Virus record (IMG/VR): IMGVR_UViG_3300005253_000028
Coordinates: 1-43,972 of that record
Source: a virus
Reading direction: 5' to 3' (one strand)
Length of the DNA stretch: 43,972 nucleotides
The translations under genes were made by a program, and so were the position numbers. The notes below the pieces were generated by a model that saw nothing but the letters and a program-made list of their open reading frames with translations, had not been told where the DNA came from and did no database searches. The stretch's first letter is position 1. Each line of letters starts with the position of its first letter. Shown here piece by piece: positions 27,518 to 43,558 of the stretch.

Positions 27518-28146
27518 AAGAGCGCCCGATCCTCTTTAGCGGCCCGATGGTGAGAGCCCTACTCCGGGAAGTTGACCCAAAGACCATGACTCGGCGCGTG
27601 GTTAAACTGCCTGATGCCCCGAATCATCTAGGGGATTGGGAGCCTACTTTTCTTGGCGGTGATGGCACAACCACAGATTCAAGAGGGGTGTTAGTGCCGA
27701 GAATAGAGGGTATTTGGCATACGAGAACTGGTAAGTTTATCAAGTGCCCCTACGGTCAGCCCGGCGACCGGCTCTGGGTGAAGGAGACATGGCGTGAACC
27801 TGTCAGTGAAGGCTCAGGATATATAGACTATCTTGCGGACCACATCACTAAGCCGAGCTTTATCATATGGCGCCCGTCTATCTTCATGCCCCGAAAATTC
27901 AGTCGCATACTCCTGGAGATAACGGCGGTGCGGGTCGAGCGGTTGCAGGAGATATCAGAGGAAGATGCCAAAGCGGAAGGTTGGCCTGTGCCTGAGTTGG
28001 GTACGGAGATAAGTATACGCAAAGCAGTGCCGGTTATTTGGTTTTGTGACCTCTGGGACAGCATCAACGCCAAGCGGGGATATTCCTGGAAGTCGAACCC
28101 ATTCTGCTGGGTGGTGGAGTTCAAAAGGATAACTACAAGAGAGTAG
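27514..28146 (+). CDS. ASCH-domain phage protein (210 aa)
   Basis: It starts MKERPILFSGPMVRALL and continues with MTRRVVK. CPYGQPGDRLWVKETW follows, and after it RILLEITAVRVERLQEISEEDAKAEGW: the standard phage ASCH signature. ASCH folds resemble PUA domains and bind RNA or modified nucleosides; some cut or modify nucleic acids. The C-terminus has the usual late W/P/F pattern (NPFCWVVEFKRI). The stop codon lies inside a possible copy of the junction element (28136-28180). Confidence 0.8.
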   Translation: MKERPILFSGPMVRALLREVDPKTMTRRVVKLPDAPNHLGDWEPTFLGGDGTTTDSRGVLVPRIEGIWHTRTGKFIKCPYGQPGDRLWVKETWREPVSEGSGYIDYLADHITKPSFIIWRPSIFMPRKFSRILLEITAVRVERLQEISEEDAKAEGWPVPELGTEISIRKAVPVIWFCDLWDSINAKRGYSWKSNPFCWVVEFKRITTRE

Positions 28147-28180
28147 GGAGGCACTTTCATGGAACGTCAAGCACCAGAAA
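28136..28180 (+). repeat. Possible junction element, copy 0
   Basis: CAAGAGAGTAGGGAGGCACTT followed 15-17 bases later by GCACCAGAAAAAC closely resembles the 34168 copy in both end boxes and spacing. It spans the stop of the ASCH gene and the ATG (28159) of the next gene, so the right box is translated (APEK). It stands alone, 4.8 kb from the other copies, so chance similarity remains possible. Confidence 0.35.
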
Positions 28181-28749
28181 AACCCCCGGAGAACAAACAT
28201 TCCCCAACGCCGTGGAAAGCCGAAGACCGCACCCAAACATATCTCCTCGATGCTGGAGATAAAAGGGTTGCCTTTACCATGTTGAACTCCGAATTTGACC
28301 TTGAAAGAGCCCAGGCCAACCGCGACCTTATCCTTGATGCTGTCAACGGGCAGAAGGCGTTGGAGGAAGAGCTGGCAGAGATAAAAGACCAGATAAGGGA
28401 AAAGCTATTTATCAACAGGGGGCTTGCGGAGACGGTGAAGGCATTGCAAACGGCCCTCGACTCGAATGAGCAGATATTAACCCGAGTCAGTAGTTCGCGC
28501 GAACGCCTTAAAGAGGAACTCTCCAAGGTCAAGGCACAGAGGGATGAACTGGTAGCGGCTTGTGAGGTAATAAGCGACGTGTTTCCCGAGATAACAGAGA
28601 GTCCCATAGGGTCAGGGCTAGAAGGCACGTACCTTTCACCGGCAGGGACGATGATGCCCTCACAGCATATCGTGGCCTTACGGCAAGCCCTCGACAAAAT
28701 CAAAGAGGGACTGGACACGGAAACCATCTACAAAACCAAGGGAGGATGA
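28159..28749 (+). CDS. Ead/Ea22-like coiled-coil protein (196 aa)
   Basis: HSPTPWKAEDR near the N-terminus, then ANRDLILDAVNGQKALEEEL and a long coiled-coil (about 65-135), is the pattern of accessory phage proteins of the Ead/Ea22 kind, which carry an N-terminal beta domain and a leucine/charged helix. The function is unknown. Ribosome binding site GGGAGG lies eight bases from the ATG. Confidence 0.62.
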   Translation: MERQAPEKPPENKHSPTPWKAEDRTQTYLLDAGDKRVAFTMLNSEFDLERAQANRDLILDAVNGQKALEEELAEIKDQIREKLFINRGLAETVKALQTALDSNEQILTRVSSSRERLKEELSKVKAQRDELVAACEVISDVFPEITESPIGSGLEGTYLSPAGTMMPSQHIVALRQALDKIKEGLDTETIYKTKGG

Positions 28750-30999: not shown

Positions 31000-31593
31000 A
31001 TGGATTTTGACCGCGCATCCCTAAAGTACATGGCCCAGGCCAACCTACGGGGTAAGCCTACGGAGTGGCTGGTGTTCCACTTCCAGCACCTACAGGACGA
31101 ACTACAAAAGGTCAAAGACTACGAACACCTCACACCGGACGACCCCTACGTCTACTATGGCCTGTGTAGCCTGGATGCGCTGGTAAACGAGGTACAGAGA
31201 CGGCGCAGACTGTCCTATGCGGGGATCACAAACACCAACCGGGAGACCATTGAGGCCATCAAATCATCCTTGAAGATAGAGGATATCCTGGAGTGGTACA
31301 CAGAAGTATTCCTACACCAAAGGAACTGGACCTACAGGTGTACCCTCCACGGCCCTGACAACCACCCCTCCGGCTCCATAAAGGACAACAGGGCTCACTG
31401 TTTTGTTTGTGACCAGGGTGGGGATGTGTTCGATGTGGTCCAACTGTTTGAGCGAGTGAGCTTGCCCCAAGCGATGGCGAAACTCGCTCGTCATATAGGA
31501 ATTAACCTTGGTCCTATAAAGGGGGGTGGGGAGGGGTATAAGGGGAATTTCACAAAATCACAATACAATCGCAAAGCTACAGGGTGGTACTAG
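31000..31593 (+). CDS. DnaG-type CHC2 zinc-finger protein without TOPRIM
   Basis: Residues 114-150 contain C114-x2-H117 and C134-x2-C137 followed by GGDVFDVVQLFERVSLPQAM, the CHC2 zinc domain of bacterial DnaG primases, preceded by the IKSSLKIEDILEWY helix typical of its start. The N-terminal 80 residues are unrelated helices. The catalytic TOPRIM domain is absent and the protein ends 45 residues later. It may recognise single-stranded origin DNA and recruit host primase, or work with the ATPase. The iteron array follows at once. Confidence 0.82.
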   Translation: MDFDRASLKYMAQANLRGKPTEWLVFHFQHLQDELQKVKDYEHLTPDDPYVYYGLCSLDALVNEVQRRRRLSYAGITNTNRETIEAIKSSLKIEDILEWYTEVFLHQRNWTYRCTLHGPDNHPSGSIKDNRAHCFVCDQGGDVFDVVQLFERVSLPQAMAKLARHIGINLGPIKGGGEGYKGNFTKSQYNRKATGWY

Positions 31594-31605
31594 CGAACGT
31601 GGGGA

Positions 31606-31717
31606 GTGTGACAAGCAGTGTGACAAGAGTGTGACAGAATCGGCAAAAGCGTGACGAGTATGACCGCGTGTGACAAGTTGAAGCTAAGGTGTGACGGGTG
31701 TGACCACTGTGACAAAG
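31606..31717 (+). repeat. Nine-copy iteron array, probable replication origin
   Basis: Direct repeats of GTGTGACAAG or close variants begin near 31606, 31618, 31629, 31649, 31658, 31668, 31689, 31698 and 31708. The invariant core is TGAC, mostly GTGTGAC. Spacings are about 10-12 or 20-21 bases, one or two helical turns, placing all copies on one DNA face. An AT-rich stretch (AATAATATTTAG) follows at 31718. The position between the primase-like and ATPase genes fits iteron-controlled initiation, with the winged-helix ATPase as a candidate binder. Fixed spacers and long repeats are absent, so it is not a CRISPR. Confidence 0.8.
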
Positions 31718-31729
31718 GAATAATATTTA

Positions 31730-32614
31730 GTGTATCAAGAATTTAACGAACCCGAGGTACTCACCAAGGAAGCGGTTTTGGAATGGATAGGCGATGCGGA
31801 GGGGTGGTTTTCGGCAGATCAGTTAGACCGTGACCTGATAATTGTAGAGAGGGCGGGTAAGGCCAGCCGGAGGAAGATACTATCCAGGCTGGTTGAGGAA
31901 GGGCTTTTAGAACGCAAGGGTGGTAGGCATGGTTCATATAGACAAGTGGATGGGGAGGCCCACGAGATTGATTGGCAAGCGGCTAACCCCAATGCGGTTT
32001 TGGATTTGGAGTTTGCCTTCAACATCCATCATCATGTCAAACTGTTTCCCAAGAGCGTCATTATGATAGCCGGGGAAACCAACTCGGGAAAGACCGCCTT
32101 CATGTACGATTTCATCATAAGGAATATGCACAAGGAAATGCCCATCAACCTTTTTAATTCAGAGACCTCCGGGGAACAGATGCGGGAACGCTTTAATAAT
32201 TTTGGCATCGAGATACCCAACCCGGCTCCATTTAAAACCTATGAGCGTTACGATAACTTTGCCGATGTCATTCACCCGGACAAGATTTCTGTCATAGATT
32301 ATCTCGATCTAAATTCTGAGGTCTACATGATAGGTGAGGAAATAGAGCGCATCCGGCGCAAGCTCAAGAAGGGTGTAGCCGTGATAGCGATACAGAAAAA
32401 GTCGAAGCAAGAGCTGGGCCAGGGTGGAGTGTTCTCCATCAAGGCCTCGGCGTTGTACCTCTCGATGACCACGGGCGGCATCCTCACGCTGGTAAAAGGG
32501 AAGTCATGGCTGGACCCCAAAGACAATCCTAACGGGAAAAGCTGGAAATTTAAGTTGGTTGGGGGAGCGAAATTCGTGAACATTACTGAGATATTACCGG
32601 ATTGGCCGGAGTAA
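31730..32614 (+). CDS. Winged-helix/RecA-like replication ATPase (294 aa)
   Basis: Residues 10-75 form a winged helix-turn-helix (WFSADQLDRDL, SRRKILSRLVEEGLLERKGG). A RecA-like ATPase follows, with Walker A GETNSGKT (115-122), a second conserved segment NLFNSETSGEQMRERF and Walker B ISVIDYLD (Asp190). This is the architecture of phage origin-binding/DnaB-like or RepA-like helicase ATPases. GTG 31730 lies just right of the iterons and AT-rich DNA, so the protein may bind its own upstream region and control its expression. A weak AAAGGA ribosome binding site suggests low expression. Confidence 0.8.
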   Translation: MYQEFNEPEVLTKEAVLEWIGDAEGWFSADQLDRDLIIVERAGKASRRKILSRLVEEGLLERKGGRHGSYRQVDGEAHEIDWQAANPNAVLDLEFAFNIHHHVKLFPKSVIMIAGETNSGKTAFMYDFIIRNMHKEMPINLFNSETSGEQMRERFNNFGIEIPNPAPFKTYERYDNFADVIHPDKISVIDYLDLNSEVYMIGEEIERIRRKLKKGVAVIAIQKKSKQELGQGGVFSIKASALYLSMTTGGILTLVKGKSWLDPKDNPNGKSWKFKLVGGAKFVNITEILPDWPE

Positions 32615-32623
32615 AGGAGACAC

Positions 32624-32713
32624 ATGAGGCTGACGAATTGGGGTAACGCTCCTGATAAAAGCGGGAAAATGACCCACGCCAGCGCCTTCCTGGAGCAACT
32701 GAGGCAGTTATGA
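32624..32713 (+). CDS. Mini-protein (29 aa)
   Basis: AAAGGAGACAC precedes the ATG and the stop overlaps the next start (TTATGA), so it behaves as a coupled gene. The sequence is polar with a short C-terminal helix (ASAFLEQLRQL). Too short to classify. Confidence 0.5.
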   Translation: MRLTNWGNAPDKSGKMTHASAFLEQLRQL

Positions 32714-33003
32714 CAGACTGGAAAGATACCGTGATGAAAGCAAATGATCTGTGCCTCAAGGTATGCCAGGACCATCGCACTCGCACACTTGAAGGAAAGA
32801 ACTGCGACGGCCTAGACTGTGAGGAGTGCCAACTAAAAGCCCAAGCCGGGATATCCTTTAAGGCTGGAGGGCAAGGGGTAGTGGATTGGGTAGTAAAGAA
32901 AATGCATCTCAACTTTGGGGACTGGTGGGAGTGGGAAAAGCAGATCAAAGCCTGGGGGCTGGTGGGCGATGGTGATAAAGAACCAACCGATTCAAGAGAT
33001 TAG
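32710..33003 (+). CDS. Hypothetical protein with four-Cys cluster (97 aa)
   Basis: The ATG overlaps the preceding stop. Cys residues at CLKVC, CDGLDCEEC could hold a zinc ion; the C-terminal half is Trp-rich (FGDWWEWEKQIKAWGL). The last five codons (DSRD plus stop) are supplied by the left box of the junction element at 32991. No family recognised. Confidence 0.55.
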   Translation: MTDWKDTVMKANDLCLKVCQDHRTRTLEGKNCDGLDCEECQLKAQAGISFKAGGQGVVDWVVKKMHLNFGDWWEWEKQIKAWGLVGDGDKEPTDSRD

Positions 33004-33035
33004 GGTTTTAACATCTGAGAGATATTCACCAGGAG
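32991..33035 (+). repeat. Junction element, copy 1
   Basis: TTCAAGAGATTAGGG at the left end and TATTCACCAGGAGG at the right, 34 bases from CAAGAG to CACCAG. The left box encodes the end of the upstream gene, and the right box runs straight into the ribosome binding site (AGGAGG) of the zinc-ribbon/HTH gene at 33043. AGAT (32996-32999) can pair with ATCT (about 33012-33015). Confidence 0.75.
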
Positions 33036-33042
33036 GTAACCC

Positions 33043-33315
33043 ATGACAACGTCAACCCTAGCGCGGTGTGAAAGGTGTGGAGGCAATCTATACCCTTATG
33101 AAGGAGGGATGAAGTGTCTCCAGTGTTCGAGGAGCTTTGGAGGGAAAGAGCCGGAGTCAAGGGTAGCGCCGAAGCATTACACCCGTGGGTTCAAGGAGAT
33201 GGTGGTAAAGCAGGCCTTGAGGGTAGGGAACTATGCGCTGGTGGGCAGGCAGTTGGGGGTAAGCGACAAGTTGGTACAGCACTGGGTAGCGGGGAGGCAT
33301 GATGGAAAACGATAG
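33043..33315 (+). CDS. Zinc-ribbon plus helix-turn-helix DNA-binding protein (90 aa)
   Basis: CERCGG and CLQCSRSF form a zinc ribbon at residues 9-30. The C-terminal half (YTRGFKEMVVKQALRVGNYA, LVGRQLGVSDKLVQHWVAG) is a transposase/Tc3-type helix-turn-helix. Likely a sequence-specific DNA binder and possible regulator, with no catalytic domain. It overlaps the next gene. It lies directly behind a junction element and could be tested as its binder. Confidence 0.75.
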   Translation: MTTSTLARCERCGGNLYPYEGGMKCLQCSRSFGGKEPESRVAPKHYTRGFKEMVVKQALRVGNYALVGRQLGVSDKLVQHWVAGRHDGKR

Positions 33316-33583
33316 ATTACTGAGTGATGAGGAGATGTGGGTTAAGGCCATTGTGAACCTTGATGAGCATCCCACTCTCGAAGACGAAAACCTGTATCCG
33401 GTTTATGGTTTCAGAGCTATCCGTGATGCCCAGGACGCCAAGAGCTTTCCGCTTGGGGTGCGTGAGGGAATCGAGGAAGTGTTCGATGCGCTAAAAGAAA
33501 TACTAGGAGAGGCCGAGGGTGAGGAACTGACAAAGAGGATCACAGATGGTATCGTAAAACAGCACAAGGAGCCAACGGAATGA
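33302..33583 (+). CDS. Hypothetical protein sharing the AQDxKSxPLG motif (93 aa)
   Basis: GGGGAGG precedes paired ATGs (33299, 33302). The centre reads IRDAQDAKSFPLGVREGIEE, matching ICQAQDTKSYPLGEEAGIAK in the protein at 37989, so the two are paralogues. The rest is acidic and helical. The function is unknown. The stop overlaps the methyltransferase-like start (ATGA). Confidence 0.62.
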   Translation: MENDRLLSDEEMWVKAIVNLDEHPTLEDENLYPVYGFRAIRDAQDAKSFPLGVREGIEEVFDALKEILGEAEGEELTKRITDGIVKQHKEPTE

Positions 33584-34161: not shown

Positions 34162-34241
34162 TGGAAACTTTAAGAGCTACAGGAAGCACTTTGAGCAGTG
34201 GTAAGCACCAGAAATCCATGGTCATAGGGGTGATAAGGTGA
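34161..34241 (+). CDS. Possible 26-codon frame spanning junction element copy 2
   Basis: ATG 34161 overlaps the upstream TAA, and the frame ends in TGA overlapping the GTG start at 34238 (GTGA). The frame contains the whole junction element. An equivalent 26-codon frame occurs at the 34547 element. It could couple translation across the junction. The peptide sequences are unrelated in frame, so the peptide itself is unlikely to matter. Confidence 0.3.
   Translation: METLRATGSTLSSGKHQKSMVIGVIR
34168..34214 (+). repeat. Junction element, copy 2
   Basis: Left box CTTTAAGAGCTAC, right box TAAGCACCAGAAAT. GAGCT can pair with AGCAC (one A-A mismatch), then CACT with AGTG around a 6-base loop. It lies between the methyltransferase-like gene and DUF1064. 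Confidence 0.75.
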
Positions 34242-34546
34242 ACAAATACGGGGCGGTTAGAACATGGTCGCAACTCTGTGGTCGCACCTTTGACTCAAAG
34301 ACTGAGATGAGACGTGGCGAGGAGTTAGCATTGCTTGAAATAGCTGGGGAGATAAAAGACCTAGTTTACCAATATCGGGTTGCCTTATGTAAGAAGCCGA
34401 GGGTGACAATCACGATTGACTTCATGTATCGCGAAAAAGGCAAATATGTCTACGAGGATACAAAGGGCGTACTTACCCGCGAGTTTCGGGTGAAGATGGC
34501 TTGGCTTAAAGAGAAGTGGGGCGTGGAGGTGGTGCTAACGAAATGA
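34238..34546 (+). CDS. DUF1064 PD-(D/E)XK nuclease-like protein (102 aa)
   Basis: It begins MNKYGAVRT and continues with RTFDSKTEMRRGEELALLEI, then EIKDLVYQ and ITIDFMYREKGKYVYEDTKG: the DUF1064 order, with Glu, Asp and E-D-x-K residues of a PD-(D/E)XK core. Such phage proteins are thought to be small endonucleases, sometimes substituting for junction resolvases. GTG 34238 has ATAGGGGTGATAAG upstream. Confidence 0.82.
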   Translation: MNKYGAVRTWSQLCGRTFDSKTEMRRGEELALLEIAGEIKDLVYQYRVALCKKPRVTITIDFMYREKGKYVYEDTKGVLTREFRVKMAWLKEKWGVEVVLTK

Positions 34547-34627
34547 ATGCTTCAAGTGATAAGGGCATCACCTCATAGCAGGTATAGCACCAGAAAAACT
34601 CTGGATATAGAGGGGGGTATTACGTGA
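34547..34627 (+). CDS. Possible 26-codon frame spanning junction element copy 3
   Basis: ATG 34547 directly follows the DUF1064 stop and the frame ends in TGA overlapping GTG 34624. Same length and same GTGA junction as the frame at 34161, but a different reading frame relative to the conserved boxes. Probably a translational bridge if translated at all. Confidence 0.3.
   Translation: MLQVIRASPHSRYSTRKTLDIEGGIT
34549..34600 (+). repeat. Junction element, copy 3
   Basis: Left box GCTTCAAGTGATAAGG, right box TATAGCACCAGAAAAACTCT. GTGAT pairs perfectly with ATCAC, and ACCT with AGGT around a 6-base loop. The right flank AAAAACTCT is shared with copy 4 (36534). Confidence 0.78.
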
Positions 34628-34794
34628 GGACCATAGAATTAACCGAAAAAGAATGCCGATACCTGAACAGGCTATTAAGTTCATGGCTGGGCCTTTCATC
34701 GAAGTGGACACCGAAGCCGCTGGCGAGGTTTAGGCTCTACGAGGTCAAACACAAGTTGGAGTGGGCTAAGAAACACGGGGTATTACGTGGATAG
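34624..34794 (+). CDS. Small basic protein (56 aa)
   Basis: GAGGGGGGT lies upstream of GTG 34624. The product (RTIELTEKECRYLNRLLSSW, LYEVKHKLEWAKKHG) is basic and helical and may bind nucleic acid. No family recognised. It overlaps the next gene by eight bases. Confidence 0.58.
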   Translation: MRTIELTEKECRYLNRLLSSWLGLSSKWTPKPLARFRLYEVKHKLEWAKKHGVLRG

Positions 34795-35017
34795 GGAATG
34801 TTATGACGAAATCCAGCATGAGATCGACGGGCTCAATCATGTCTGCGAGGTTTGCGGGAGTCACGGGGACTTTCGAGGGATTCAACGGCATCACAAAATC
34901 TTGAAGAAAATGGGCGGGCGCAAGGGCAGGGCTAAGGAGTTGATTGAAGACCCATCTAACATCGAGTGGCTTTGCGGGTTTCATCATTCTCAAAGGCATG
35001 GAATTCGTGAGCGATGA
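34787..35017 (+). CDS. Small HNH endonuclease (76 aa)
   Basis: CEVCGSHG, then QRHHKILKKMGG, NIEWLCGFHHSQRH forms a compact HNH fold: Cys pair, HH, Asn and the C-x2-HH zinc knuckle. The acidic N-terminus is short. It could nick DNA or act as a free-standing mobile nuclease. GTG 34787 overlaps the preceding gene. Confidence 0.75.
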   Translation: MDRECYDEIQHEIDGLNHVCEVCGSHGDFRGIQRHHKILKKMGGRKGRAKELIEDPSNIEWLCGFHHSQRHGIRER

Positions 35018-35050
35018 GAGGATTGTGGGCACAGGGTTCATGGCTGAAAC

Positions 35051-35079
35051 TTGCAATCTACCACCACATAGAGTATACT
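35051..35079 (+). promoter_or_regulatory. Promoter upstream of the HTH-HNH gene
   Basis: TTGCAA (35051-35056), 17-base spacer, TATACT (35074-35079). A start near 35086 leaves a short leader containing TAGGGGG before ATG 35099. Having its own promoter fits a mobile endonuclease gene. Confidence 0.7.
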
Positions 35080-35098
35080 CTTTGGTAGGGGGTAGAAG

Positions 35099-35659
35099 AT
35101 GCAAGGTAGAAAAGCGATATACACAGCAGACCAGTTAAGGGAAATGTATTGGGAACAAAACATGACGACCACTGAAATATCCAAGCTCTTTGGTGTGGGG
35201 ATGAGTGCAGTTGCTCACGCTATGAACCGCCTGGGTGTCCCGAAGCGCTCTCATGGGGAGCAATTAAGGAAACAATATGAGCTGGGCAAGATAACGGCAC
35301 CGCTTACTGGCCGAGCCATGGTGAATTGGCGTGGTGGCCGGATGACTAAAGCGGGGTATATCTACGAGAAGCTACATGAGAGTCATCGCTTCTGGTGTAT
35401 GGCCCGAAAGGGTGGCGGACATCAACACGGATATGCCGCGCAGCATCGCCTCGTTATGGCGGAACATCTGGGCCGGCCATTGGTTACTGAGGATATTGTG
35501 CATCACCTCAACGGGCAAAGGGCCGACAATAGGTTGGAAAACTTGTCGCTGGTAGATCGCAGAACACATCCGACATGGGCTTTCCAACACGCTATGCAAG
35601 AGAGGATACGGACGCTGGAGGCCCACATTGCCAATATTGCACAACTCAAGATGGTATAG
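35099..35659 (+). CDS. HTH plus HNH endonuclease (186 aa)
   Basis: Residues 20-50 (TTTEISKLFGVGMSAVAHAM) form a helix-turn-helix that would select the DNA target. Residues about 115-165 (QHRLVMAEHLGR, IVHHLNGQRADNRLENLSLV) are an HNH_3 nuclease core closely similar to the gene at 15143. The C-terminus is a coiled-coil. Likely a free-standing homing endonuclease. Confidence 0.85.
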   Translation: MQGRKAIYTADQLREMYWEQNMTTTEISKLFGVGMSAVAHAMNRLGVPKRSHGEQLRKQYELGKITAPLTGRAMVNWRGGRMTKAGYIYEKLHESHRFWCMARKGGGHQHGYAAQHRLVMAEHLGRPLVTEDIVHHLNGQRADNRLENLSLVDRRTHPTWAFQHAMQERIRTLEAHIANIAQLKMV

Positions 35660-35718
35660 TGCTGGCGGTGCCTATACCGGCATCATTTTGCTCAGGAATT
35701 GAAGGGATAAGGAGAGCA

Positions 35719-36546
35719 ATGCAAAAGACTGATATCGAATACTTGGATATGACTTGGAATCCCATGACCGGCTGTAATCACTGGAAGTATGGTGGGCCTT
35801 GCGGTGGGGGCGGCAGGGACTTCCGGTGCTGGGCCATGGGCATCGCCAACAGGTTCAAGAAAAACTACCCCAAGGGCTTTGAGCCGGACTTACGCCTGGA
35901 CCGCATCATGGAACCAACTTTGTATAGCCCACCCCTACGGATCGGTGTCAGCTTTATGGGCGACCTATTCTGCGATTGGGGGAAGGAGCCATCGGAGGCA
36001 ATTGTTGGCACCTTAGCCGAAGAAGCCCGGATGCTCATAAAGAGCACGATCAGCGATTGCCCCCAGCACACCTTCCTGTTTCTGACGAAGGCCCCGTGGA
36101 ATCTTCACAAGTGGTCCCCCTGGCCGGCCAATGCCTGGGTAGGTGCCACTGCAACAAGTTATCGGGCATTTGTTCATGCGTGTGGTGATCTGGGGGCATT
36201 GCATCATAGGGATGGGGCCATGACCTACATATCCTTTGAGCCCTTGTTATCTTGGGATAGTAACCCAGGATTTACACTGCCTTGGCTGAATGGCAATATT
36301 GGATGGGTCATTATCGGGGCAGCCCGAGGCAAGATGCCGAAACTGGAGTGGGTGAAGAATATCGTGAATGCTGCGGATGAAGCTGATATCCCCGTGTTCC
36401 TTAAGGACAATCTCAAGCCGCTGTTCGCCAACATCGAGGAACCGGCCTGGATGGTGGGCTGGAAGAATGTGCCGGGGGAGATGCGGCAGGAATACCCGCG
36501 GGTGGGGGGCGACGGTGACCAACCAAAGGCTAATTCAAGAGCTTAG
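35719..36546 (+). CDS. DUF5131 (phage Gp37/Gp68-like) protein (275 aa)
   Basis: It begins DIEYLDMTWNPMTGCNHWKYGG, followed by spaced Cys residues (PCGG ... FRCWA). After this come RIGVSFMGDLFCDW, HTFLFLTKAP, TYISFEPLLS and WVIIGAARG: the DUF5131 TIM-barrel signature related to radical-SAM enzymes. Three N-terminal Cys could hold an Fe-S cluster. The substrate is unknown. ATAAGGAGAGC precedes ATG 35719. Its last codons are supplied by the left box of a junction element. Confidence 0.82.
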   Translation: MQKTDIEYLDMTWNPMTGCNHWKYGGPCGGGGRDFRCWAMGIANRFKKNYPKGFEPDLRLDRIMEPTLYSPPLRIGVSFMGDLFCDWGKEPSEAIVGTLAEEARMLIKSTISDCPQHTFLFLTKAPWNLHKWSPWPANAWVGATATSYRAFVHACGDLGALHHRDGAMTYISFEPLLSWDSNPGFTLPWLNGNIGWVIIGAARGKMPKLEWVKNIVNAADEADIPVFLKDNLKPLFANIEEPAWMVGWKNVPGEMRQEYPRVGGDGDQPKANSRA

Positions 36547-36584
36547 GGTGGTAAGAGCGCACGGCTATTCACCAGAAAAACTCT
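36534..36584 (+). repeat. Junction element, copy 4
   Basis: Left box TTCAAGAGCTTAGGGTGG encodes the end of the DUF5131 gene; right box CTATTCACCAGAAAAACTCT. GAGCT pairs with AGCGC apart from one mismatch. CAAGAG-to-CACCAG spacing is 34 bases, as in copy 1. Confidence 0.77.
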
Positions 36585-36611
36585 AGGAAAAGAGCTAAAG
36601 GGATAAGGGAG

Positions 36612-36640
36612 TTGAAAGGTGAAGCCGTGTGTGGTATAAT
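36612..36640 (+). promoter_or_regulatory. Near-consensus sigma70 promoter for the HNH gene
   Basis: TTGAAA (36612-36617), 17-base spacer, TATAAT (36635-36640). Transcription should start near 36647, at the 5' edge of the folded leader. Confidence 0.85.
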
Positions 36641-36645
36641 AAGAT

Positions 36646-36714
36646 ATGCCCTTCGGGATGAGCGGAGGCCTGGATACTCATCCTATCTGGGCCAACGTTA
36701 AACCTGGAGGGCAT
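36646..36714 (+). ncRNA. Structured 5' leader that can mask the ribosome binding site
   Basis: ATGCCC (36646-36651) pairs with GGGCAT (36709-36714), which overlaps the ribosome binding site GGAGGG (36706-36711) of the gene at 36720. GGATGAG (36656-36662) pairs with CTCATCC (36677-36683). GGCC in that hairpin loop (36667-36670) can pair with GGCC at 36690-36693, making a pseudoknot. This is a riboswitch- or thermosensor-like layout controlling translation. I cannot match it to a known family; association with an HNH gene recalls HEARO RNAs, but the length is too small. Confidence 0.6.
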
Positions 36715-36719
36715 TTATT

Positions 36720-37151
36720 ATGGATAATTTCTGGTCACGAGTGCTGAAAACGGACACCTGTTGGCTGTGGCGGGGGGTGACATCGCAGGGTTATGGCAGG
36801 AGCCCGATTAGGTGTGATGGCAAATACATTTATGCGCTAGCTCACAGGGTTGCCTACGAGGAATTGGTTGGCCCTATTCCAGAAGGTTTGCAACTAGATC
36901 ATCTCTGCCGGGTGAGGAACTGTGTGAACCCAGCGCATCTTGAGGCTGTTACGTCAGGGGAAAACACTCGGAGGGGGGACACAGGAAAGAATAATGCTAT
37001 CAAGACTCATTGCCCTAAAGGGCATCCCTACGATGAGGAGAATACCCGCATCCTCCCGAATGGTTGGAGGGTGTGCAAAGAATGTGCACACATCCACCAC
37101 AACAACCATTACTGGCGTAAGAAGTTATCCCGAAACTTGTGGGAGGCGTGA
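36720..37151 (+). CDS. HNH endonuclease with its own promoter and leader (143 aa)
   Basis: Residues 40-80 (LAHRVAYEELVG, LQLDHLCRVRNCVNPAHLEA) hold the HNH catalytic set (His42, Asp60-His61, Asn70, His73), typical of phage homing endonucleases. A C-terminal zinc-knuckle (HCPKGHPYD, CKECAH) follows. A strong promoter and folded leader precede it, similar in logic to the delayed expression control of T4 homing endonucleases. The stop lies by the next start. Confidence 0.86.
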   Translation: MDNFWSRVLKTDTCWLWRGVTSQGYGRSPIRCDGKYIYALAHRVAYEELVGPIPEGLQLDHLCRVRNCVNPAHLEAVTSGENTRRGDTGKNNAIKTHCPKGHPYDEENTRILPNGWRVCKECAHIHHNNHYWRKKLSRNLWEA

Positions 37152-37606
37152 TGGAAAGGATTTACAAAACTACAGAGTCTCAGAGGGCGGCATCTTTACG
37201 CTACTTTGGAACTCCGGCAGGGAAAGAGGCCCAAAGGAGGTACTATACATCAGAAAAGGGGAGGGCGGCTAGGAACCAGCGTCGGAACTCAATCGCGGGG
37301 AAAGCGAATGAGAAGCGGTATCGGGATTCTGATAAGGGTAGGGAAACTAGGCGCAATTATGAGCTTGCTCATCCCTACTCGTATCGGAGGCACACATCTC
37401 GCAAGGTACGGTTTACATTGGAGGTGCCCCTTGATGTGGAGAAGGATAATGGCATTGTTCGTGTTAGTTCGTCGATGTTTCCTGAATTGCAGGTATCGGC
37501 TAATTCAATCATCCACGCCTTGGCTTTAGCAAAGTTAGCTTCAGAGACGCATATTAAGGCCTTGTTTATGGGTGAGGGGCCGGGTAACACCGTAGCGACC
37601 GTCTAA
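37151..37606 (+). CDS. Basic repeat protein with Gly-Lys/Gly-Arg motifs (151 aa)
   Basis: Residues 8-75 repeat a short unit rich in S-x-KGR/AGK-x-x-RRRY (TPAGKEAQRRYYTSEKGRAA, SDKGRETRRNYE), a DNA-binding repeat often seen beside or inside phage HNH proteins. The C-terminal half is a compact alpha/beta domain (FTLEVPLDVEKDNGIVRVSS). It may be the targeting partner of the HNH protein, whose stop it overlaps. No catalytic motif seen. Confidence 0.65.
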   Translation: MERIYKTTESQRAASLRYFGTPAGKEAQRRYYTSEKGRAARNQRRNSIAGKANEKRYRDSDKGRETRRNYELAHPYSYRRHTSRKVRFTLEVPLDVEKDNGIVRVSSSMFPELQVSANSIIHALALAKLASETHIKALFMGEGPGNTVATV

Positions 37607-37646
37607 GAGCTACAGATAATGAGCTCGTACAGGTAAGCACCAGAGC
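37602..37646 (+). repeat. Junction element, copy 5
   Basis: Left box TCTAAGAGCTAC contains the stop codon of the upstream gene; right box GGTAAGCACCAGAG. GAGCT pairs perfectly with AGCTC (37622-37626), but the second hairpin is not clear in this copy. Confidence 0.72.
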
Positions 37647-37673
37647 TATTGGGAAAGGATAAGGGGGTGAGTG

Positions 37674-37922
37674 ATGTGTAGGCAACCAGCAGAAGTATTC
37701 CATCCAGGCGTATATATCAAAGAGGAATTGGAGGCAAGGGGATGGTCGCCGTCTGTGTTGGCGATGGTGATGGGCTACCCGCTCGATAAGCTGACAGCGA
37801 TCCTTGAGGGCAAGCGGCGGGTCACGGTATCTGTGGTTGCGGGTCTGACACGGGCCTTTGGGACTAGCGAGATGTTCTGGCTGAACCTCCAGCGTATCTA
37901 TGATGGCGGGGGGCGGCGGTAA
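37674..37922 (+). CDS. higA: HigA-like XRE helix-turn-helix protein, orphan (82 aa)
   Basis: FHPGVYIKEELEARGWSPSV, then ILEGKRRVTVSVVAGLTRAFGTSEMFWLNLQ matches HigA/VapI antitoxins closely over its full length. No HigB toxin is encoded next to it, so it is an orphan. It may be a repressor of phage genes or an antitoxin against a host toxin. ATG 37674 with AAGGGGGTGAGTG upstream. Confidence 0.82.
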   Translation: MCRQPAEVFHPGVYIKEELEARGWSPSVLAMVMGYPLDKLTAILEGKRRVTVSVVAGLTRAFGTSEMFWLNLQRIYDGGGRR

Positions 37923-37924
37923 CA

Positions 37925-37980
37925 TCTAAAGCTCATTCACGGGATTAAGGCCCTGCACACGTAGAGATATTCACCAGAGA
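37925..37980 (+). repeat. Junction element, copy 6 (long form)
   Basis: Left box TCTAAAGCTCATTC, right box GAGATATTCACCAGAG. The middle is about 10 bases longer than in other copies and contains GGG/CCC. The right box merges into the ribosome binding site GAGAGGAGAG of the gene at 37989. Confidence 0.65.
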
Positions 37981-37988
37981 GGAGAGCG

Positions 37989-38318
37989 ATGGTAGGAGGA
38001 AGAAGGCGGGCTGAAAGTAACCTATATGGAGGGCCAAACTGGGATTTTCACGATAATAGCTCTATCCGTGAGGCTCGGGCAAAGGAGAGCGAAAACTTTG
38101 AAAGGGGAAACAGCATGAGCGACAGGCTATTAACCTGGAAGGAACTTGTTAAACTAGATAGTGATAAAGCTATTTGCCAAGCCCAGGACACCAAGAGCTA
38201 TCCACTAGGGGAGGAAGCCGGTATTGCAAAGGGAAGGGCTGAGGTAGTGGCTTTCATAGACAAAGAATACAGCTGGATTATACCTCGGGAACAGCTCAAG
38301 GAATGGGGGCTGGGGTGA
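37989..38318 (+). CDS. Hypothetical protein with AQDxKSxPLG motif (109 aa)
   Basis: The C-terminal part (ICQAQDTKSYPLGEEAGIAK, then a helix) is paralogous to the protein at 33302. The N-terminal 42 residues are Arg/Asn-rich and low in structure. ATG 38115 with GAAAGGGGAAAC upstream is a good alternative start giving a 67-residue protein that aligns with its paralogue. Last gene of the rightward block. Confidence 0.58.
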   Translation: MVGGRRRAESNLYGGPNWDFHDNSSIREARAKESENFERGNSMSDRLLTWKELVKLDSDKAICQAQDTKSYPLGEEAGIAKGRAEVVAFIDKEYSWIIPREQLKEWGLG

Positions 38319-38330
38319 CAAAGTAGGATA

Positions 38331-38379
38331 GCTTTAAGAGCAACGGGAGTCACTTGCCCAAAGGTTACGCACCAGAAAT
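38331..38379 (+). repeat. Junction element, copy 7
   Basis: Left box GCTTTAAGAGCAACGGG, right box TTACGCACCAGAAAT. ACTT pairs with AGGT (one G-T pair) around GCCCAA. This copy sits between convergent genes and is the only full copy not upstream of a start codon. A small GAGA-loop hairpin follows at about 38388-38402. Confidence 0.7.
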
Positions 38380-38418
38380 AACCCCTGAGAGATCAAGGAC
38401 CGGGGCTTTCGTTAGAGG

Positions 38419-38580
38419 TTAGTCACCGTAGCAGTCATTCCGAAAGCTATTGATATCGAAGTGGTCAACGTTATCTTGCAGCATCTTCCCGAAGTCCTCA
38501 ACTAAGCCACTGAATCCGTCCATGCCACTACCATACGAGCACAAGATTTTGGCTATTCTGATGCAATCCAATACATCCAT
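38419..38580 (-). CDS. Hypothetical protein (53 aa)
   Basis: GGAAGGAGGGGAATAAG precedes the ATG at 38580, so the longer upstream frame is rejected. The product is acidic and helical (DVLDCIRIAKILCSYGSG, VEDFGKMLQDNVDHFD). Last gene of the leftward operon. No family recognised. Confidence 0.6.
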   Translation of the reverse strand: MDVLDCIRIAKILCSYGSGMDGFSGLVEDFGKMLQDNVDHFDINSFRNDCYGD

Positions 38581-38581
38581 C

Positions 38582-38641
38582 TTATTCCCCTCCTTCCAGC
38601 CAATGTCCGCACGTACCACAGTCGGGGCAGGTTATTTTCAT
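38582..38641 (-). CDS. Cys-rich mini-peptide (19 aa)
   Basis: The ATG overlaps the upstream stop (ATGA) and GGAGGCC lies before it. The peptide (KITCPDCGTCGHWLEGG) has three Cys and a His, enough for one zinc site. Its 3' end contains the ribosome binding site of the next gene. It may be a true micro-protein or only a coupling device. Confidence 0.45.
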   Translation of the reverse strand: MKITCPDCGTCGHWLEGGE

Positions 38642-38784
38642 TGGGCCTCCTTGTTGGTCTTTTCATCCTCCAGTTGTTGCCGTCTTTCCTCAATGACCAA
38701 TCGCCCCCAGGCCACAGGGTCACCAGCAGTTAGCCTATCTAAGAGGGTGAGCCTTTCTTCTTCTGTCACTCGTATGTTGGCCAT
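38638..38784 (-). CDS. Small helical protein (48 aa)
   Basis: GAAAGGAAAC precedes ATG 38784. The sequence is a charged amphipathic helix (VTEEERLTLLDRLTAGD, VIEERRQQLEDEKTN). No family recognised. Coupled to the next gene. Confidence 0.58.
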   Translation of the reverse strand: MANIRVTEEERLTLLDRLTAGDPVAWGRLVIEERRQQLEDEKTNKEAQ

Positions 38785-38822
38785 TATGTTTCCTTTCTGG
38801 TTCTCACCGTTTCATCGAGGTG

Positions 38823-39143
38823 TTAACTGTCGCTCTTAGAGTGATCTTCAAAGTGCTCCTTAGCATGGAAGGCGCACCAATACTCCCCGCAGTAGAGACA
38901 TCGGTAGCCATTCTCGGTGAGATTGATGGTTTCCCTGCAACCCACTTGATGGCAACGTGGGTTATGGAGCTTTAACCTTTCGGTGTACTCGTTGACCTTG
39001 AGGGCTATCTTTAGTAGATTGCTTTGAAGTTCCATCTCACGAGCCTCCAGCCGCTCGACCTCAGACAGCAAATGCTCCATTGCCTCGACAAGCGGATGTC
39101 CTTTGAACGCCTGAAGCCTTGCCCGTATTTCTCGCTTGTCCAT
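38823..39143 (-). CDS. Coiled-coil protein with C-terminal zinc fingers (106 aa)
   Basis: Residues 1-60 form a coiled-coil (ALQAFKGHP-like start, HLLSEVERLEAREMELQSNL). Residues 64-100 contain CHQVGC, CLYCGEYWC and two His, resembling a B-box or treble-clef zinc site. TAGGAGGAACGTC precedes the ATG and comes from the leader repeat joined to junction element copy 8. The function is unknown. Confidence 0.65.
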   Translation of the reverse strand: MDKREIRARLQAFKGHPLVEAMEHLLSEVERLEAREMELQSNLLKIALKVNEYTERLKLHNPRCHQVGCRETINLTENGYRCLYCGEYWCAFHAKEHFEDHSKSDS

Positions 39144-39152
39144 GACGTTCCT

Positions 39153-39216
39153 CCTAACAAAGTTAAACTAGCTTCAAGAGATTGTGGTATCACTTGCCGT
39201 ATAGTCTGCACCAGGA
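39153..39216 (+). repeat. Junction element, copy 8, in the 5' leader of a leftward gene
   Basis: Plus-strand left box CTAGCTTCAAGAGATTG and right box TCTGCACCAGGA, with GAGAT/ATCAC and ACT/AGT helices. Bases 39153-39173 (TAACAAAGTTAAACTAG) are an extension shared with copy 9 and, reversed, copy 11. It precedes the minus-strand start at 39143, so it is antisense to the mRNA. Confidence 0.75.
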
Positions 39217-39219
39217 CTC

Positions 39220-39393
39220 CTACGCTTCCCGGCAATGGTCATTAGTCAGGGCAATACAATGCACATCTTTCAGATGCGGCCCGATATGAGCGCCACAAAA
39301 GGACTTCCCGCAATCCAGGCATTTGGCGTCGGGGTTCCTTGGGCAGAATATCTTATCATCCGCGAGGCAATCTGGGCAATGTATTATATTCAT
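39220..39393 (-). CDS. Zinc-finger protein (57 aa)
   Basis: GGGGAGGGAAATCAC precedes the ATG. IIHCPDCLADDKIFC, CLDCGKSFCGAHIG and HLKDVHC give eight Cys/His ligands, probably two zinc sites of treble-clef or B-box kind, akin to the C-terminus of the protein at 38823. Probably a protein- or nucleic-acid-binding factor. Confidence 0.65.
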   Translation of the reverse strand: MNIIHCPDCLADDKIFCPRNPDAKCLDCGKSFCGAHIGPHLKDVHCIALTNDHCREA

Positions 39394-39435
39394 TGTGATT
39401 TCCCTCCCCTTTATGTTTATCCCAAGGGCCTACGC

Positions 39436-39609
39436 TTACGGCTTATCCTTTAGTACGATATTGTATATACTTTCCTTGTAATAGTTGCCTTCATCGTCTT
39501 GGTGGCTTGTTTCCTCTTGAACGTCAAAGTCCCGAATGATAACGCTCACACCTTGAGGAAGTTGGAGGACTTCGGCCATTCCGTCTCGAACCTCGATTAT
39601 AACGTCCAT
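39436..39609 (-). CDS. Small acidic beta-rich protein (57 aa)
   Basis: Starts MDVIIEVRDGMAEVLQLPQG, then SVIIRDFDVQEE: alternating strands with an acidic loop, as in short phage proteins that begin with an I/V-rich strand and a D-F-D turn. The ATG follows GGGGAATAG. Downstream of its stop is a 16-base fragment (39420-39435) identical to the 3' end of the zinc-ribbon gene at 40962. Confidence 0.6.
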   Translation of the reverse strand: MDVIIEVRDGMAEVLQLPQGVSVIIRDFDVQEETSHQDDEGNYYKESIYNIVLKDKP

Positions 39610-39610
39610 T

Positions 39611-39766
39611 CTATTCCCCTTTCTTATCCAGCGGCCTACGTATTCGTTCCTGGTCCCAGTAATAGGAGTTGCATTTTGGGCACCGGCCCCCTGTTTTGGC
39701 AGGGTTTCGCGGGTACCATTCGTGGAAACAGCGTTTACAATGTCTCTGCTTTATGATCTTGACCAT
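39611..39766 (-). CDS. Zinc-ribbon mini-protein, paralogue 2 (51 aa)
   Basis: VKIIKQRHCKRCFHEWYPR, then CPKCNSYYWDQERIRRPL. It is closely similar to the gene at 40962 in protein and DNA, and more distantly to 25776. The ATG overlaps the upstream stop (TAATG), as in the paralogue. Zinc ribbon with a conserved YWDQER tail, probably a DNA- or RNA-polymerase-binding or other host-directed factor, but unproven. Confidence 0.7.
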   Translation of the reverse strand: MVKIIKQRHCKRCFHEWYPRNPAKTGGRCPKCNSYYWDQERIRRPLDKKGE

Positions 39767-39993
39767 TAGTTGCCCTCCGTGAACTCAGCGACAAGCTCAG
39801 ACCTACCACCGCCGCTGCTGCCGCTTGTCCGGTAAACTTGCACCTCATCTTTTCCGGTTGTCTCGTTGTGGGTGAGGTAGACATGAGCCCCCACATGCCA
39901 GCCTCGTAGGTGACCGCTAATGCCGGTCCTCTTGCCGCCCAACCTTGAAACTGGCCCCCTGCTTCCCTGTATGTCTGCTCTGAAGTGTGCCAT
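39766..39993 (-). CDS. Conserved small phage protein (75 aa)
   Basis: AAAGGAGAATC precedes ATG 39993. The sequence (MAHFRADIQGSRGPVSRLGG, SGHLRGWHVGAHVYL, DEVQVYRTSGSSGG) belongs to a widespread group of short phage proteins with the same HFR-x-IQG-x-RG and GW-x-x-G motifs. The role is unknown; beta-rich, basic, possibly nucleic-acid binding. Confidence 0.72.
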   Translation of the reverse strand: MAHFRADIQGSRGPVSRLGGKRTGISGHLRGWHVGAHVYLTHNETTGKDEVQVYRTSGSSGGGRSELVAEFTEGN

Positions 39994-40000
39994 GATTCTC

Positions 40001-40028
40001 CTTTCGTTTTTCCCGTTCCCCATGTTAG
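40001..40028 (-). repeat. Leader repeat B, copy 1
   Basis: This 28-base sequence is identical to 40472-40499. On the minus strand it reads from CTAACATGGGGAACGGG to AAACGAAAG and runs into the ribosome binding site of the gene starting at 39993. It contains an ATG that opens a frame joined to the gene, but the real start has a better ribosome binding site. Confidence 0.85.
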
Positions 40029-40035
40029 GGGAAAG

Positions 40036-40278
40036 TTAGCCCCTCGGGTTTTGTCCGACAGATTCGCAAAACTCAGCCCATGATGGGAAATCATGGCCAG
40101 TCTCGATCTCCTCCGGCCAAGCGGCTATCTTCCCGCCATCCTCAAGTTGGATATGGTACATTGGGCCCACTTCGGGGTCACGCTCCGCATCCGTCAGTTC
40201 TCCTAGGACCGTGAACCCCAGGCCCTCCAGGTGAGCGTACTGCTCGTATGGCGTGGTAAAGGTTTTTCTAAACTCCAT
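40036..40278 (-). CDS. Hypothetical protein (80 aa)
   Basis: TTAGGAGGAAAATC precedes the ATG. The product is acidic, with aromatic and Pro-rich segments (YEQYAHLEGLGFTVLGELTD, MYHIQLEDGGKIAAWPEEI) that suggest a small alpha/beta domain. No family recognised. Confidence 0.62.
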   Translation of the reverse strand: MEFRKTFTTPYEQYAHLEGLGFTVLGELTDAERDPEVGPMYHIQLEDGGKIAAWPEEIETGHDFPSWAEFCESVGQNPRG

Positions 40279-40304
40279 GATTTTCCTCCTAATAAAGCTT
40301 GTTT

Positions 40305-40466
40305 CTAGCCCTCTGATCCTTCGACATCTTCTGGGTGGCCGGTTACTCGTTTTATGATTGGACCGCGGGGATCACAGTGGTTACAAAGGACTCGGTAATC
40401 ATCGGGGTCGCCAGTGACAGTTGCCATCCCACCGCAGTCTGTGCATATAATAATCTGTTTCATCAT
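40305..40466 (-). CDS. Zinc-ribbon protein (53 aa)
   Basis: AAAGGGGGG precedes two ATGs (40466, 40463). CTDCGG and CNHCDP about 24 residues apart form a zinc ribbon; the tail is acidic. Unlike the YWD family it lacks the Tyr-Trp-Asp tail. Confidence 0.62.
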   Translation of the reverse strand: MMKQIIICTDCGGMATVTGDPDDYRVLCNHCDPRGPIIKRVTGHPEDVEGSEG

Positions 40467-40471
40467 CCCCC

Positions 40472-40499
40472 CTTTCGTTTTTCCCGTTCCCCATGTTAG
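40472..40499 (-). repeat. Leader repeat B, copy 2
   Basis: Identical over 28 bases to 40001-40028 and likewise placed directly upstream of a leftward start (40463/40466). The coding sequences that follow are unrelated, so the leader itself was duplicated. Confidence 0.85.
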
Positions 40500-40511
40500 A
40501 GAGTTCTGGTT

Positions 40512-40706
40512 CTAGCCCTCAATGGGGGTGTTTCCTGAATCTCTTAGAGCGGCTTGGTAGCCGATTTCATAACCGACCTGTATCCACTGGTCTTCGATGA
40601 GCTCCTGTAAATAATGTGGGCTTAGGGAACTGATGCGTGCCCTCAGGACTTTTATACGATTTTCCCAATACGTTGTTGTTTTGCGTTCCACTTTCTTGGT
40701 CCTCAT
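40512..40706 (-). CDS. Small basic protein (64 aa)
   Basis: ATG 40706 overlaps the upstream stop and follows GGTTAGGGCGACC. The N-terminal region is Lys/Arg/Thr-rich, the middle a helix (NRIKVLRARISSLSPHYLQE), the end Gly/Tyr/Ile-rich (WIQVGYEIGYQAAL). Possibly nucleic-acid binding. No family recognised. Confidence 0.58.
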   Translation of the reverse strand: MRTKKVERKTTTYWENRIKVLRARISSLSPHYLQELIEDQWIQVGYEIGYQAALRDSGNTPIEG

Positions 40707-40882
40707 GGTCGCCCTAACCGCAACGCATCTTCCGGGGTGTAACCGGCTTGCAGTAGTCTGCGCCATGCCTGGTGGTAGTCCTGCTCACGGATGTGCCTGA
40801 GATCGTTGGAGGTATCAATTCCGCTCTTGAATAACTCATCACAGGCTCGCCAGTATTGTCGGATTTCATAGGTATCGTTCAT
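40703..40882 (-). CDS. Small helical protein (59 aa)
   Basis: TAGGAGGAACGTTG precedes ATG 40882, and this leader belongs to junction element copy 9. The product is helical and basic (EIRQYWRACDELFKSGID, YHQAWRRLLQAGYTPEDAL). No family recognised. It overlaps the next gene by four bases. Confidence 0.6.
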   Translation of the reverse strand: MNDTYEIRQYWRACDELFKSGIDTSNDLRHIREQDYHQAWRRLLQAGYTPEDALRLGRP

Positions 40883-40892
40883 CAACGTTCCT

Positions 40893-40959
40893 CCTAACTA
40901 AGTTAAACTAGCTTCAAGTGATAAGGGCTGCACCTCATTGCAGGTTTAGCACCAGAAAC
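40893..40959 (+). repeat. Junction element, copy 9, in the 5' leader of a leftward gene
   Basis: Plus-strand left box GCTTCAAGTGATAAGGG and right box TTTAGCACCAGAAAC; ACCT/AGGT pair around CATTGC as in copy 3. Bases 40893-40913 are the same extension as in copy 8. It separates the zinc-ribbon gene 40962 from the start at 40882. Confidence 0.78.
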
Positions 40960-41584: not shown

Positions 41585-41599
41585 GATTCTCCTTCCGGC

Positions 41600-41893
41600 C
41601 TATCTCATCAGTACCGAGTGGCCAACCCCGGCAGAGCCCCGGATGGGGCTTTCGGCTAGTTTCTCCTGCATCGCTCTATATATTGCCTGGAGTGCTGCTA
41701 GGGCTGCTGCCTTCGTATAGAACGGGTCGAGGTAGGTATAGCGGTCCCAGCCCTCATATCGGGCTTGCCAGAGAGTAGCCCCCACCTTTTCATCTCCGTT
41801 ATCATCCTCCACCTTATAGGAGTAAACAACCCATTGCTCATCTTCACTCCTGTACAATCCTGGGAAGATTCTTTTGAGTTTGAGTTGTTTCAT
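41600..41893 (-). CDS. Hypothetical protein, first gene of the leftward operon (97 aa)
   Basis: AAGGGAGGGGAC precedes the ATG, 26 bases after the predicted transcription start. The N-terminal 60 residues (LKLKRIFPGLYRSEDEQWVV, TLWQARYEGWDRY) resemble a small beta-barrel; a helix follows. No family recognised. Confidence 0.65.
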   Translation of the reverse strand: MKQLKLKRIFPGLYRSEDEQWVVYSYKVEDDNGDEKVGATLWQARYEGWDRYTYLDPFYTKAAALAALQAIYRAMQEKLAESPIRGSAGVGHSVLMR

Positions 41894-42076: not shown

Positions 42077-42120
42077 TTCAAGAGATTCAGGCGGTAACAA
42101 TGTGGGCTATTCACCAGAAA
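42077..42120 (+). repeat. Junction element, copy 10
   Basis: Left box TTCAAGAGATTCAGGCGG, right box GGCTATTCACCAGAAAC; one base shorter than copies 1 and 4. The helix is poor in this copy (ATT/AAT only). It lies between the divergent leftward promoter and the small-terminase gene. Confidence 0.72.
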
Positions 42121-43501: not shown

Positions 43502-43507
43502 TATAAT
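43499..43507 (+). promoter_or_regulatory. Extended -10 promoter before the RyR gene
   Basis: TG-A-TATAAT (43499-43507) matches an extended -10 perfectly, but no -35 box is visible. Transcription would begin near 43514, just before the reversed junction-element leader and the gene at 43559. Confidence 0.55.
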
Positions 43508-43516
43508 GAGGTGAAA

Positions 43517-43552
43517 CCCTTATCACTTGAAGCTAGTTTAACTTTGTTAGGG
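43517..43552 (-). repeat. Junction element, copy 11 (partial, reversed)
   Basis: The plus strand reads CCCTTATCACTTGAAGC, then TAGTTTAACTTTGTTAGG: the reverse complement of the left box and extension of copies 8 and 9. The CACCAG end is missing. As with copies 8 and 9, the extension runs into the ribosome binding site of the adjacent gene (43559). Confidence 0.72.
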
Positions 43553-43558
43553 GGACCG

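Follow-up and report, generated by a model that had tools for sequence, protein, structure and literature searches.

A repeated two-box element at gene junctions of the accessory region of an uncultured phage, with a thin indication of a short hairpin

The virus record IMGVR_UViG_3300005253_000028 (43,972 bp, analysed over its whole length and called the window here) is a single phage genome with an exact 399-bp terminal repeat at its ends. Its genes include those for a terminase large subunit, an HK97-type capsid (major head protein), a RecB-type exonuclease, primase-like and helicase-like proteins and a terminase small subunit. The structural half occupies roughly the first 25 kb, and the early/accessory half spans about 26-42 kb, pointing rightward at first and leftward over 38.4-41.9 kb. 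Repeated through this early/accessory region is an element of about 46 bp built from two boxes: TTYAAGAG, about 5 variable bases, GG, about 20 variable bases, and then CACCAGAAA. The record holds 13 full copies and one half copy. The solid part of the finding is sequence, spacing and place: the boxes are conserved, their spacing is near-fixed, and the copies stand at the edges of exchanged modules, usually sense to the flanking genes. A small hairpin beside the left box is not the mainly conserved part of the element.

The two boxes start 35-38 nt apart and are near-invariant, while the middles between them have strongly diverged. Type A copies carry a CACYT-like motif following the GG and a GCACCAG box (GAACCAG in both minus-strand copies); type B copies end in TATTCACCAG; the copy at 37602 is intermediate between the types. 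Eleven plus-strand copies came from a CACCAG-anchored search, and a sequence-only profile was then built on these. This profile found two further full copies and the half copy, all on the minus strand; neither full one was among the sequences on which it had been built, and they matched at E 2e-5 and 0.008. A second profile, made from 13 copies, matches all 13 at E <= 6e-6, which holds by construction for its own members, and gives the half copy at 0.003 and nothing more at E <= 2. A relaxed two-box pattern occurs 10 times on the plus strand and twice on the minus strand of the early region, and not at all in the structural region (25.9 kb); about 0.2 matches per strand are expected under an order-1 Markov model.

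Placement is equally restricted. All copies lie at gene junctions in the accessory/early region (28.1-43.5 kb) and none in the structural region, and the midpoints of 12 of the 13 full copies fall outside genes, in a region of which only 17% is intergenic. Nine full copies are sense in tandem gene pairs, two are antisense, one stands at a convergent and one at a divergent junction; the sense bias (9/11) has a one-sided chance of 0.033 if sense and antisense are equally likely. The end of the upstream gene is overlapped by six of the nine sense copies. Junctions were read from a hand-made gene table of 42 rows, 9 of them off by a few bases, with junction types unaffected. Eight of the nine were read again, the one at 35719 as an ATG position only, and the start of the terminase small-subunit gene (42204) was set by eye.

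Copies 1 to 11 are those on the plus strand, and the bits given here are scores from the sequence-only 13-copy profile. Copy 1 (28135..28180, 32.0 bits) overlaps the stop of the gene 27424-28146 together with the ATG and first codons of the gene 28159-28749. Copy 2 (32991..33034, 30.6 bits), a type B copy, overlaps the stop of the gene 32710-33003, and its right box extends into the Shine-Dalgarno of the gene at 33043. Copy 3 (34169..34214, 35.5 bits) precedes a Holliday-junction-resolvase-like gene (34238-34546) that encodes a DUF1064 protein, matches PHROG Holliday junction resolvases and has element copies on either side. Copy 4 (34551..34596, 30.5 bits) shows a perfect GTGAT/ATCAC. Copy 5 (36534..36578, 30.8 bits, type B) overlaps the stop of a DUF5131 gene ending at 36546, and copy 6 (37602..37645, 25.2 bits), with a perfect GAGCT/AGCTC, overlaps a stop at 37606. 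Copy 7 (37936..37979, 22.6 bits) is of type B with a diverged left box. Copy 8 (38333..38378, 31.3 bits) occupies the convergent junction, 3' of a plus-strand gene ending at 38318, and copy 11 (42077..42120, 27.9 bits, type B) the divergent junction before the terminase small-subunit gene.

The antisense full copies are copy 9 (39173..39216, 26.5 bits) and copy 10 (40913..40958, 33.0 bits), each between two minus-strand genes; copy 10 and copy 4 are sisters, 92% identical. The two full copies on the minus strand are both sense to minus-strand genes. That at 38794..38840 (24.3 bits) contains the stop of the gene 39143-38823, and the next gene starts at 38784; that at 40504..40548 (29.5 bits) covers the 3' end of the gene 40766-40512. 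The half copy (43507..43531, minus strand, 14.2 bits) is a left half, antisense, before a plus-strand gene at 43556. Copies 3, 4, 5, 6, 8, 9 and 10 had been numbered 2, 3, 4, 5, 7, 8 and 9 in an earlier, sequence-only reading of this DNA, from which the two minus-strand full copies were absent.

Shared sequence beside the boxes links several of these junctions. A leader with GTTAAACTAGC adjoins the left box ahead of three different genes. A leader with its ribosome-binding site (39145..39182, minus strand), joined to the left box of copy 9, recurs with 95% identity at 40885-40922, and the half copy at 43.5 kb has a similar one next to it. Because this leader is common to both antisense copies and the half copy, the three may be a single lineage. 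Another leader, of 29 bp, is exact at 40000-40028 and 40471-40499, where it serves two different minus-strand genes, and the second of these adjoins the minus-strand copy at 40504..40548. Of a pair of zinc-ribbon paralogues (39766-39611 and 41102-40962), the latter has its end next to copy 10; 25 bp from its 3' end turn up again at 39416-39440, where there is no element. The genes 37989-38318 and 33299-33583 are also paralogous, and one of the pair has element copies on both sides. HNH-endonuclease genes, like the resolvase-like gene, are located among the copies. Together, the shared leaders, gene-end scars and paralogues beside boxes suggest that copying or exchange of modules took place, its breaks falling at the element or close to it.

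Shared flanks and a sister pair 92% alike would also fit functionless recombination debris, that is, intergenic sequence spread by module copying and conserved through recent common origin alone. Recent origin alone does not give near-invariant boxes around strongly diverged middles, however, and this explanation is considered very unlikely.

The favoured explanation, to which a probability of roughly 45% is assigned, is that the element is a short mobile junction sequence or regulatory cassette of the PeSL or SAS/ESAS kind, which sits at the edges of exchangeable modules in the accessory region and travels with them. The two-box cassette of about 46 bp would move together with the gene modules whose edges it marks, and as a repeated sequence it would supply homology for recombination between them. 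Recognition would be of the box sequence itself, probably at the transcript level given that most copies are sense to a neighbouring gene, and would set how the inserted module is expressed; the small hairpin next to the left box may contribute.

Several points weigh against this explanation. Exchange is inferred inside one genome, and the searches made did not find a second element-bearing genome. No tyrosine or serine recombinase is present among the 38 different proteins scanned with Pfam and/or PHROGs, a set that does not take in every gene. Of the sigma-70-like promoters (14 found against 13.8 expected, the best site about 35 nt downstream of copy 5), none coincides with the element; unlike PeSLs, it therefore carries no recognisable promoter. 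Finally, a role confined to the transcript does not account for the antisense orientation of two full copies and the half copy.

Copies at all junction types, antisense ones included, are what would be expected of dispersed double-stranded DNA sites for a phage regulator, with half-sites about 35-38 bp apart and a loosely constrained orientation. In the available parts of the sources, the stoperators of Cluster A mycobacteriophages are many asymmetric sites of 13 bp across the genome, bound by a repressor (PMC9283540, PMC3203893). The element resembles them in being asymmetric, dispersed and present in many copies, and the pattern of conserved boxes, variable middle and 35-38 nt spacing agrees with such a role. 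In addition, the type B boxes resemble direct repeats (ATTCAAGAG / ATTCACCAG), and a helix-turn-helix regulator gene (37671-37922) lies among the copies. The type A half-sites, however, are only weakly alike, copies extend into the ends of coding sequences and in one case over a start codon, and the pairing of regulator and site is putative. Known stoperators are 13 bp long and repressor-bound; for the element here a binding protein is putative. A stoperator-like role is regarded as unlikely.

Among described systems, the element appears nearest in kind to SAS/ESAS and PeSLs. The SAS/ESAS of Cluster K mycobacteriophages, as presented in the accessible part of their description, are asymmetric repeats of 11-19 copies that occur only in the non-structural part of the genome and mostly in one orientation; they occupy wide intergenic gaps, sometimes with an upstream stop codon inside, and about half carry inverted repeats, although the authors saw little support for mRNA hairpins (PMC3203893). 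Repetition, non-structural location, junction placement and a mostly single orientation are shared with the phage element. The SAS proper, in the same part of that source, is 13 bp long, contains a Shine-Dalgarno and stands 3-7 bp from start codons (PMC3203893), whereas the phage element has 46 bp and two boxes, lies at variable distances from starts, also occurs at convergent and divergent junctions and is sometimes antisense. At most copy 2 comes near the start-codon geometry of the SAS, and copies 8 and 11 stand at the convergent and divergent junctions.

PeSLs of T4-type phages, and a similar motif of the haloarchaeal virus HGTV-1, are described in the available sections of two papers as intergenic cassettes with an early promoter and a stem-loop (PMC3950731, PMC4503421). 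As far as those sections go, they resemble the element here in recurring as intergenic cassettes where genes are intensely shuffled, with a proposed part in module exchange; the element is indeed repeated at the gene junctions of a hypervariable region. It differs from them in having no recognisable sigma-70-like promoter (phage-specific promoters fall outside that test) and no strong stem-loop.

Relatives carrying the element were sought in several collections. A narrow search of the literature on repeated intergenic phage elements found no description of it. Pattern scans of IMG/VR, whose negatives, like all the others given here for relatives, are bounded by the pattern or model used and by a search set that near records may lie outside, returned 25, 22, 2 and 0 stretches, chance matches only. 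In the first two scans a second relaxed match occurred in one locus only (L029) and was unlike the element, and both stretches of the third resemble tRNA 3' halves by eye. In IMG/VR, queries with three proteins (the terminase, the helicase and the product of a cassette gene) brought up no relatives. The capsid query found 17 (42-77% identity, several of them short fragments), and the element was not found in any of these 17 loci; the two long records within the nine closest (G006 and G007) have structural genes in common with the window, and no early genes. The element was likewise not found in the methanogen viruses MetMV and vir555, distantly related by terminase or helicase, or in 147 genomes of one family around the sole genome match. 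The host link from that match is one short contig of a metagenome bin and possibly a binning error.

Host signals conflict. The best phage-collection match of the terminase (1031-2359) is the methanogen virus MetMV (59% identity over part of the query), and those of the helicase (31730-32614) are the methanogen viruses MetMV (38% identity, part of the query) and vir555, whereas the promoter-like sites look bacterial. Intergenic sequence upstream of the helicase gene (31590-31735) contains many GTGAC motifs, iteron-like by eye, and is a candidate replication origin.

The sequence-only reading had proposed that compensatory base changes reveal a folded form of the element, with two helices under selection. 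Every letter string that it quoted is present in the sequence. For helix 1, next to the left box, its examples pair in differing registers, with loops of 6, 10 and 12 nt. Those at 34169, 34551 and 39173 (3/5) share one register with a 6-nt loop. The AGCGC of the 36534 copy sits 6 nt further on and the AGCTC of the 37602 copy 4 nt further on, and therefore these do not occupy the same alignment columns as the other right arms. The second pair of the helix is an A·A mismatch in two of the three in-register examples and A·G in the 36534 copy.

Column-based tests gave no sign of structure. In register, helix 1 has standard pairs in 55.4% of cells over 13 copies, compared with 56.4% when the 3' letters are shuffled. 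RNAalifold, under the settings of the tool, predicts 0 pairs on alignments of 11 and 13 copies (A1 and A3, both excluding the half copy at 43.5 kb); with Ribosum scoring, run on 8 type A, 4 type B or 13 copies, it gives weak structures only, no better than column-shuffled alignments (p 0.41-0.65). Over 14 sequences, the folding energy (-94.8 against -89.5 +/- 8.0 shuffled, p 0.25) and the best local stems in the middles (116 against 119.9 +/- 9.3 shuffled, p 0.68) are ordinary.

A different result emerges when the register is left free: the left arm (positions 6-10, GAGNN) then has a better complement in the middle of its own copy than other copies offer. The summed best match over 14 sequences is 53, against 43.1 +/- 2.2 in mononucleotide shuffles (reached by 0 of 5000). 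The main permutation test used 12 copies, the 13 full ones minus the sister at 40913, with the half copy excluded; own-middle pairs number 46/60 against 40.1 expected (z 3.7). Family-wise p, corrected across 12 scanned arm positions, is 0.0013 for Watson-Crick pairs, 0.0036 for contiguous stems and 0.028 with G-U; the corresponding values are 0.0001, 0.0013 and 0.074 for 10 copies and 0.0043, 0.016 and 0.10 for 13. The signal is strongest at arm offsets 5-6 (arms from element position 6 or 7). All 12 leave-one-out runs hold (p 0.0001-0.0034), and dropping the two or three best copies weakens p to 0.005-0.018. Direct-repeat and mirror controls are flat (|z| <= 1.4), and the parallel complement reaches a z of at most 1.7. 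With the sisters included, AGC lies downstream of CT arms in 3/3 copies against 3/11 others (p 0.055), and ATC downstream of AT arms in 4/7 against 0/7 (p 0.035). In the half copy, too, the left arm pairs with sequence further on (AGTGATA/TATCACT), and copy 11 has no good match (3/5). The test is exploratory, with the arm proposed from the same sequences and a small sample of about 12 copies.

The matching of the left arm of helix 1 to its own middle is suggestive: the earlier statement that the two arms change together is partly borne out, as copy-specific complementarity in a free register and not as in-register covariation. A short hairpin beside the left box, with a movable 3' arm, stays in play as a hypothesis, though a thin one. 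Its stems have 3-5 bp and are rarely the minimum-energy fold.

Helix 2 fared worse. This 4-bp stem with a 6-nt loop occurs in four of the 13 copies, those named in the sequence-only reading, in two registers, and two of the four are the near-identical sisters (92%). Over 13 copies, its two possible registers give 48.1% against 49.8% shuffled or 38.5% against 41.1%, and the claim that changes keep its pairing finds no backing. Because a register-free test anchored on the right box also finds nothing (family-wise p > 0.4), helix 2 is unsupported, no more than chance gives.

These results bear on the possibility that the element acts as structured RNA or extruded single-stranded DNA, with a hairpin of the form GAGNN-loop(6-12 nt, usually with GG or GGG)-NNCNC at the left box and a sliding 3' arm, read by a protein or affecting ribosome access. 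The z of 3.7, robust to leave-one-out, the flat direct-repeat and mirror controls and the sense orientation of 9 of the 13 full copies speak for it. RNAalifold with its 0 pairs, in-register counts equal to shuffles, ordinary energies and local stems not in excess point the other way, as do the mismatch at pair 2 in many copies, the family-wise p of only 0.03-0.10 by copy set once G-U is admitted, and the smallness of a sample that itself suggested the arm. Such a role is rated as rather unlikely, and the proposed selection on a folded form retains thin support for the left-arm helix only. Broader still is the idea of a family of phage junction cassettes that mark exchangeable modules through a fixed GAGNN arm and a sliding partner in the variable middle, keeping structure and not register; it is doubtful. 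If true, the sliding-arm pattern would be covariation invisible to alignment-based tools such as R-scape.

Other identities were considered and rejected. An integron attC site does not fit left and right boxes that are not complementary (not inverted), and no recombinase occurs among the 38 proteins scanned, which are not every gene. Sigma-70 promoters are found as often as in shuffled sequence, and none coincides with a copy. ARAGORN finds no tRNA or tmRNA in the record, which disposes of a tRNA-derived element, and Rfam covariance models give no match at any copy (E <= 3), which does the same for a known Rfam RNA. The GGA-in-loop motif of a CsrA site fits few copies only, and boxA of a boxA/nut-type site is present in reverse only (both by eye). 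A small leader peptide encoded by the right box would have no shared frame (by eye).

Two further features of the accessory region lie apart from the element. A type II hammerhead ribozyme (41594-41657, minus strand; Rfam RF02276, 40.2 bits, exceeding the gathering score) is placed at the 3' end of the gene 41893-41600, just ahead of the start of the gene 41584-41102. Between copy 5 and the HNH gene at 36720 is a strong sigma-70-like promoter (36612-36640; 11/12, with TG preceding the second hexamer), followed by a possibly structured 5' leader without an Rfam match.

Where compensatory changes are picked out by eye in hand-chosen registers, a permutation control is needed; in this case helix 2 does not survive it, and helix 1 is left as a testable hint. 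If the element marks exchange points, it would reveal the way in which the accessory genes of an uncultured phage are put together and would help to locate such modules in further genomes.

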